Of a stretch of 35,096 bases of DNA, positions 16,664-17,069 are shown piece by piece. The stretch comes from Lentisphaeria bacterium (GTDB lineage: Bacteria > Verrucomicrobiota > Lentisphaeria > Victivallales > Victivallaceae): assembly GCA_017504435.1 (NCBI GenBank), contig JAFVRD010000015.1:1-35096 (forward strand). Direction: 5' to 3'. A program made the position numbers and the translations under genes. The notes beneath the pieces are model-generated. The model searched no databases, was not told the origin of the DNA, and saw only the letters and a program-made list of their open reading frames with translations. Position 1 is the first letter of the stretch. Every line of letters starts with the position of its first letter.

Positions 16664-16701
16664 GGATGGGTTCGGACATGACCGGATCCATCCTTTTTTT
16701 T
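16664..16701 (+). terminator. Intrinsic terminator of the oxidoreductase operon
   Basis: A 12-bp stem (GGATGG-GTT-CGG paired with CCG-GAT-CCATCC, with two G-U pairs), loop ACATGA, then eight T. It starts 20 nt after the stop codon. Confidence 0.85.
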
Positions 16702-16747: not shown

Positions 16748-16776
16748 TTGAAAAACCCTCTTTAACGGTGTATTTT
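16748..16776 (+). promoter_or_regulatory. Promoter for the structured leader and SLOG gene
   Basis: TTGAAA, 17 nt, TATTTT. This predicts transcription from about 16783, leaving a 5' region of about 280 nt before the SLOG-protein start. A small hairpin CCATCC/GGATGG (16846-16865) lies early in that leader. Confidence 0.5.
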
Positions 16777-16869
16777 TACAATGAGATCATCAAAAGTAAA
16801 TATTGGAGAAATACTCAAAAAAGTAAGTTTTTGAAAATCGCATAACCATCCTGTTTTATGGATGGAAAA

Positions 16870-17015
16870 ACATATCGCGCACCAACGAAACCGCCAAAAT
16901 TTCAACAACAGCGCGTCTCAGGTCAGTCCGTTCTATACGGCCCGACTCTTTGCGCTGTTGTGGGCCTTGGCGGGCCTCGTTGGTACATTGAGTCGGGACC
17001 GTTTTTTTTGTCCCG
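16870..17015 (+). ncRNA. Candidate structured leader RNA / riboregulator
   Basis: Three nested stems form one long arm: ACCAACGA (16881-16888) with 16977-16984, CCGCCAA (16891-16897) with 16967-16973, and ACAACAGCGC (16905-16914) with 16952-16961. That is 25 perfect pairs. The apical loop contains CCCGACTC (16941-16948), which is complementary to GAGTCGGG (16990-16997) just outside the arm and directly before a U8 run (17002-17009). GGGAC of that segment can alternatively pair with GTCCC (17010-17014), which would bury the U run in a loop. Such exclusive pairings look like a transcription attenuator or pseudoknot riboswitch. I cannot match it to a known class. It could also be an independent small RNA. 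Confidence 0.5.
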
Positions 17016-17036: not shown

Positions 17037-17069
17037 ATGAAAAAGTTTATTTCGGGAGTTTCGGCATGA
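17037..17069 (+). CDS. 10-codon leader ORF before the SLOG gene
   Basis: ATG 17037 follows GAGGAGAGG by 7 nt and reads MKKFISGVSA then TGA. The stop overlaps the next start as ATGA (17066-17069). The strong ribosome site and the overlap suggest a leader peptide that couples translation to the downstream gene, although the downstream gene also has its own GGGAG 7 nt upstream. It may simply be chance. Confidence 0.35.
   Translation: MKKFISGVSA

Follow-up and report, generated by a model that had tools for sequence, protein, structure and literature searches.

The window analysed here, i.e., the whole stretch of 35,096 nucleotides from a Lentisphaeria bacterium, carries a structured element in the interval between an oxidoreductase gene and the gene of a SLOG-like protein (Table 1). 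Since the upstream gene ends in an intrinsic terminator of its own, the RNA represents a separate transcription unit, whose transcription presumably starts at about position 16783. The protein encoded behind the element matched the Pfam families DprA, cpYpsA, YAcAr and LDcluster4, all of them below the curated cut-offs, and PHROG 289 with an E-value of 3e-17. The possible short leader reading frame in front of its gene is itself preceded by a purine-rich site.

Table 1. Features of the element and of its flanks, with positions in the window.
Feature	Position	Strand	Evidence or remark
Intrinsic terminator belonging to the upstream oxidoreductase gene, with T8 behind it	16664..16693	+	Terminator scan
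Promoter TTGAAA-17-TATTTT (TTGxAA...GGTGTATnTT in homologues)	16748..16776	+	Conserved in homologues
Shine-Dalgarno-like purine tract GGAGA, no start codon	16805..16809	+	Similar place in 82/104 members
Leader hairpin P0, CCATCC/GGATGG	16846..16865	+	Counterpart in all four further sequences of the first alignment
P1, 5' strand	16881..16888	+	Partner 16977-16984; MFE fold and covariation
P2, 5' strand CCGCCAA	16891..16897	+	Partner 16967-16973; covariation
P3, 5' strand	16906..16915	+	Partner 16951-16960; MFE fold and covariation
Apical hairpin P4/P5, antiterminator candidate, 3' half common to PT	16921..16947	+	MFE fold and family analysis
PT (putative terminator helix), 5' strand, apical CGGCCCGACTC...	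16938..16952	+	Own-versus-foreign pairing, strand overlap
Mini-hairpin P2', GGCC-TTGGCG-GGCC, with the P2 3' strand as its loop	16963..16976	+	Covariation; outside the search model
P1, 3' strand	16977..16984	+	MFE fold and covariation
PT, 3' strand CATTGAGTCGGGACCG	16986..17001	+	Own-versus-foreign pairing, strand overlap
U8 tract, presumed site of termination and 3' limit of the conserved module	17002..17009	+	Homology between related loci usually stops here
Third hairpin around the U-run, facultative	16994..17015	+	Present here, only in a subset of the family
Possible 10-codon leader reading frame MKKFISGVSA, stop overlapping the SLOG start (ATGA)	17037..17069	+	Read from the sequence
SLOG-like protein gene, 147 aa	17066..17509	+	Pfam below cut-offs; PHROG 289

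Minimum free energy folding of the element (-60.2 kcal/mol, z-score -4.9, with none of 200 shuffled sequences folding equally well) agrees with the 25 perfect base pairs originally predicted at 16881-16984, which are arranged in three nested stems of 8, 7 and 10 bp. The other two parts of that proposal are likewise present in the sequence, namely the U8 and an apical CCCGACTC (16941-16948) that is complementary to GAGTCGGG at 16990-16997, outside the nested stems. CGGGAC (16994-16999) can moreover pair with GTCCCG (17010-17015) in a hairpin that encloses the U-run. In the window the opposite strand folds slightly better (z-score -7.2), and among the first five homologues four fold more stably in the given sense; the promoter, the U-run and the downstream gene of the window all point in the direction of the given strand. 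That the fold exceeds chance follows from the homologues, in which compensatory changes preserve its pairs.

A DNA search within the genus revealed three clear relatives, one of which (G021) precedes a SLOG gene as in the window, while the other two (G005 and G013) precede a secreted DNA/RNA non-specific endonuclease that is unrelated to it. The RNA thus accompanies varied genes. Searching with the SLOG protein added a further RNA-bearing locus (in genome G061) and two SLOG genes lacking an obvious element. A covariance model built from five sequences (R1) detected the RNA in 36 of the 78 genomes searched in the family, and its refined version (R2) detected it in 88 of 198 class genomes, spread over 40 of 86 genera, in 87 of 388 genomes of a Verrucomicrobiota sample that includes those of the class, in 14 of 294 Planctomycetota and, as a control of specificity, in none of 299 Pseudomonadota genomes; some matches that lie at contig ends were set aside from judgement. 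The assemblies that carry members are labelled almost exclusively as Lentisphaerae, Lentisphaeria or Victivallaceae and stem largely from gut metagenomes. Clear members were also noticed in assemblies labelled Clostridia or Bacteroidales (L188, L176 and L219), which may be mis-binned contigs. The genome of the window holds a single copy, and a repeat search of the window found no mobile-element copies of it. Phage records returned short A/T-rich matches only. Six pattern matches in viral contigs were examined, four of them reaching 20.8 bits and two giving nothing, and they were treated as chance; L273, the one that was read out, has neither PT nor U-run. In one contig of G061 (contig 104, locus L055), two different copies of the RNA stand in tandem at 134-269 and 507-639, the first with just a 68-aa reading frame between it and the second.

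A covariance search of related genomes, by which the original prediction can be checked, found compensatory changes across the whole family. Among 89 distinct sequences, 96.2% of the alignment cells of P1, P2, P3 and P2' are paired, and double changes occur in 24 of the 26 base pairs (658 cells); with the partners slid by 1-3 columns as a control, pairing dropped to 35-43% and the covariation score from 0.734 to 0.06-0.08. P1 is paired in 97.4% of cells with double changes in six of its seven pairs, P2 in 99.6% with double changes in all of its pairs, and P2' in 96.9% with strong two-sided covariation in two pairs. Twenty members from other Verrucomicrobiota families, which had been left out of model building, showed 96.3% pairing and a score of 0.908, and in these P2 is paired throughout (100%) despite being rewritten as CCUGAGAA/UUCUCAGG, ACGACAA/UUGUCGU and others. 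The mini-hairpin P2' varies in the same manner, from GGCC-UUGGCG-GGCC in the window to GGCA/UGCC, GGUA/UACC or GGCGC/GUGCC elsewhere. Since MAFFT alone misaligned P3, the alignments were fitted to models containing P1-P3, a procedure that is biased in favour of P1-P3 and not of P2' or PT; the covariation of P2' is independent of the search models, because P2' is absent from them. One column of alignment A6 (column 182) agrees with its partner in P2 as well as with its partner in P2', which hints at competition between P2 and P2' or at a triple. Between P1 and P2 stand two A residues, whose conservation is 97-98%.

These data bear directly on the trivial reading of the locus, by which its stems would merely decorate a common intrinsic terminator or the region would be translated as an extension of the SLOG protein. 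The frame that continues the SLOG gene upstream is indeed open in the window from 16862 onwards, but several in-frame stops interrupt it at two other SLOG loci, so that the region is not coding in relatives. Nor does an ordinary terminator account for the family-wide covariation of five helices including P2', or for PT, a long-range helix which a local terminator scan misses. Contradicted already by the covariation and the in-frame stops, this reading retains hardly any credibility.

The upstream flank of the core was compared among the members as well. The purine tract lies about 70 nt before the core, and a start codon is found nearby in only 26 of the 82 members that possess it; no reading frame following the tract is conserved among them, and a leader peptide was not retained as a general feature of the family. 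Ser/Thr protein kinases, encoded at L080, L081, L097, L113 and further loci, account for 17 of the 71 genes situated directly upstream of the RNA. At some loci the kinase gene stands beside one that resembles ECF-type sigma factor genes.

The helix PT joins the 3' strand of the apical hairpin with the segment lying between P1 and the U-run. Over 89 members its mean pairing energy is -25.6 kcal/mol with the own partner versus -15.6 kcal/mol with foreign ones, and the own partner ranks in the top 10% against foreign tails in 70 of the 89; in other Verrucomicrobiota the difference is weaker and of the same direction (-28.2 versus -19.8 kcal/mol, median rank 0.08). PT comprises 13 bp in the window and about 17 bp on family average, and it ends at the P3 arm on one side and at the U-run, which it directly abuts, on the other. 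Of its 5' strand, 77% is also paired in P4/P5, a hairpin with a z-score of -3.7 relative to shuffled sequence. Because PT shares the apical strand and stops at P3, PT and P4/P5 are mutually exclusive, whereas either could in principle coexist with P1-P3. The loop-to-downstream pairing with its U-run, as originally noticed, is thus part of an exclusive arrangement of putative terminator and antiterminator that is conserved across the family. At equilibrium the nested fold is better than the PT fold without pseudoknot by ~14 kcal/mol on average, so termination would need either an outside trigger or a pseudoknotted state combining P1-P3 with PT, the pseudoknot being a model. The hairpin enclosing the U-run, proposed as a third exclusive structure, is present in the window, but its own partner ranks in the top 5% in just 17 of 107 members (where ~5 would be expected), the median rank being 0.41, and it was rejected as a feature of the family.

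The genes that follow the RNA lie preferentially in its own direction. At 74 loci the gene that comes next shares the strand of the RNA and at 5 it lies on the opposite one, as counted with a simple gene caller that left 32 further loci unscored, and the distance from the U-run to this gene varies from 0 to ~400 nt. The products include secreted endonucleases, zinc-ribbon, TM2 and Sel1 proteins, EcoRI-type and Eco57I-type methyltransferases and a protein matching PDC-M09B, and strong matches to JukA were obtained at L095 and L127. The weak match to pVip at L093, 300 nt downstream of the RNA, was not accepted and is probably another radical-SAM protein. The SLOG gene is therefore one among many accessory genes found downstream, a part of which serve phage defence, and the RNA occurs also in genomes that lack it; the element is not specific to SLOG. 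When 59 downstream proteins, with the strong JukA and methyltransferase matches among them, were screened with PADLOC alongside an upstream control set, the latter likewise produced many matches, because protein kinases match many kinase models; hence no statistical enrichment of defence genes is claimed.

The same orientation data can be held against the possibility that the element is a stand-alone, trans-acting small RNA of ~230 nt that carries a promoter and a terminator of its own and lies upstream of genes by chance. The promoter and the U-run, the compact conserved fold and the presence of several different copies per genome would suit such an RNA. In the single-contig genome G076, however, which has five copies (L130-L134), every copy has behind it, at a distance of 69-77 nt, a paralogue of one and the same small protein, probably a secreted one, and the bias to a close same-strand gene is strong. 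Competition of a terminator and an antiterminator for one strand would also be unneeded by a simple small RNA, and we regard this explanation as unlikely.

Comparison of related loci revealed a sharp boundary at the 3' end of the RNA. Among 42 locus pairs that share 120 nt or more of homology upstream, and which are not independent of one another, homology stops within 5 nt of the RNA 3' end in 24 and continues beyond 100 nt, through the downstream gene, in 9. Homology thus usually stops at the U-run, with different genes standing behind the same module. In two pairs (L062/L088 and L085/L122) the homology picks up again behind a single extra gene, so that a gene has been gained or lost exactly at the U-run. 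At L057, two copies in one genome are 100% identical over 410 nt to 3 nt past the RNA and are then followed by different genes. Boundaries at the U-run with different or extra genes were also seen in the comparisons L085/L090/L122, L080/L081 and L155/L156.

Such a boundary, the presence or absence of a gene exactly at the junction and the identical copies with different genes behind them could also be expected of a recombination or insertion site acting at the DNA level, integron-like or repeat-like, whose hairpins would serve gene exchange. The conserved promoter, the U-run and the terminator/antiterminator competition fit transcription instead; reading of the sequence found no counterpart of the element on the distal side of the genes inserted at L088 and L122, and no shared recombinase adjoins the loci, with one resolvase among the 71 upstream genes. 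An integron attI/attC site was rejected on the same ground, as no repeated element flanks the inserted genes. A DNA-level site as the primary nature of the element is accordingly quite improbable. The boundary itself may have arisen by insertion, by gene conversion affecting the module, or by loss.

We consider it probable, from comparative sequence data, that the element attenuates transcription in cis and belongs to a new RNA family of Planctomycetota and Verrucomicrobiota. An attenuator-like way of working is well supported by its anatomy and evolution, that is, by conservation, covariation, the competition of PT and P4/P5 for one strand and the orientation towards the gene. Transcription would begin at the module's own promoter, and in the nascent RNA P4/P5 would form first, followed by P1-P2-P3. 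The segment just 5' of the U-run might then capture the 3' strand of P4/P5 to build PT, which, abutting the U-run, would act as an intrinsic terminator; if P4/P5 holds, polymerase would read into the downstream gene. The highly conserved core of P1, P2, P2' and P3 is probably the sensor that tips this balance, and P2', which takes the 3' strand of P2 into its loop, seems to be part of the terminator state. In this scheme we infer termination itself, the direction of switching, and that a trigger of some kind, be it a ligand or a protein, exists at all. More tentatively, the family might represent a riboswitch-like class that senses a common cellular signal, possibly linked to phage or stress, and serves as a portable "promoter plus switch" for swapped accessory and defence genes.

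Little work has been devoted to the regulatory RNAs of Lentisphaerota and related bacteria, and a family of which well over 100 members were detected, which covaries overwhelmingly and whose anatomy is clearly that of a switch, offers a direct target for ligand search. The secreted nucleases, JukA, restriction-modification, zinc-ribbon and SLOG proteins encoded downstream, along with the frequent kinase upstream, make the signal of particular interest, and the sharp boundary at the U-run provides a handle on the exchange of accessory genes under one retained control module.

The original prediction had recognised no known riboswitch class in the element, and our searches bear this out. Against the window, Rfam 15 returned two tRNAs only at the gathering threshold; against the element, only chance-level matches under the gathering scores appeared at E<=10, and none at E<=1 against 27 loci holding divergent members. 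A literature search found no description of such an RNA, an earlier mention in the supplement of a survey being possible, and the family is apparently undescribed. A structured RNA motif has been reported from Lentisphaerae before, as the Acido-Lenti-1 motif (RF01687) is listed for Acidobacteria and Lentisphaerae (PMC2864571). RF01687 matches neither the window nor the 27 divergent loci.

The arrangement proposed here, in which P4/P5 as the early hairpin and PT as the later helix before the U residues contend for one strand, corresponds to that of attenuators whose antiterminator and terminator exclude each other, such as trp-type leaders or riboswitches that act by termination. In contrast to that class, the members examined here yielded no conserved leader peptide, and we know of no attenuator with a core like that of P1, P2, P2' and P3 with its overlap of P2 and P2'. 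In the HMP-PP (thiS) riboswitch, the sensor is merged with the terminator stem, and the intrinsic terminator and its U-run precede the controlled gene (PMC6478431), two traits that recur in the layout proposed here. That riboswitch combines a tiny aptamer with one kind of target gene and a known ligand, whereas the present element spans ~130 nt, comprises five covarying helices plus PT and stands in front of diverse genes.
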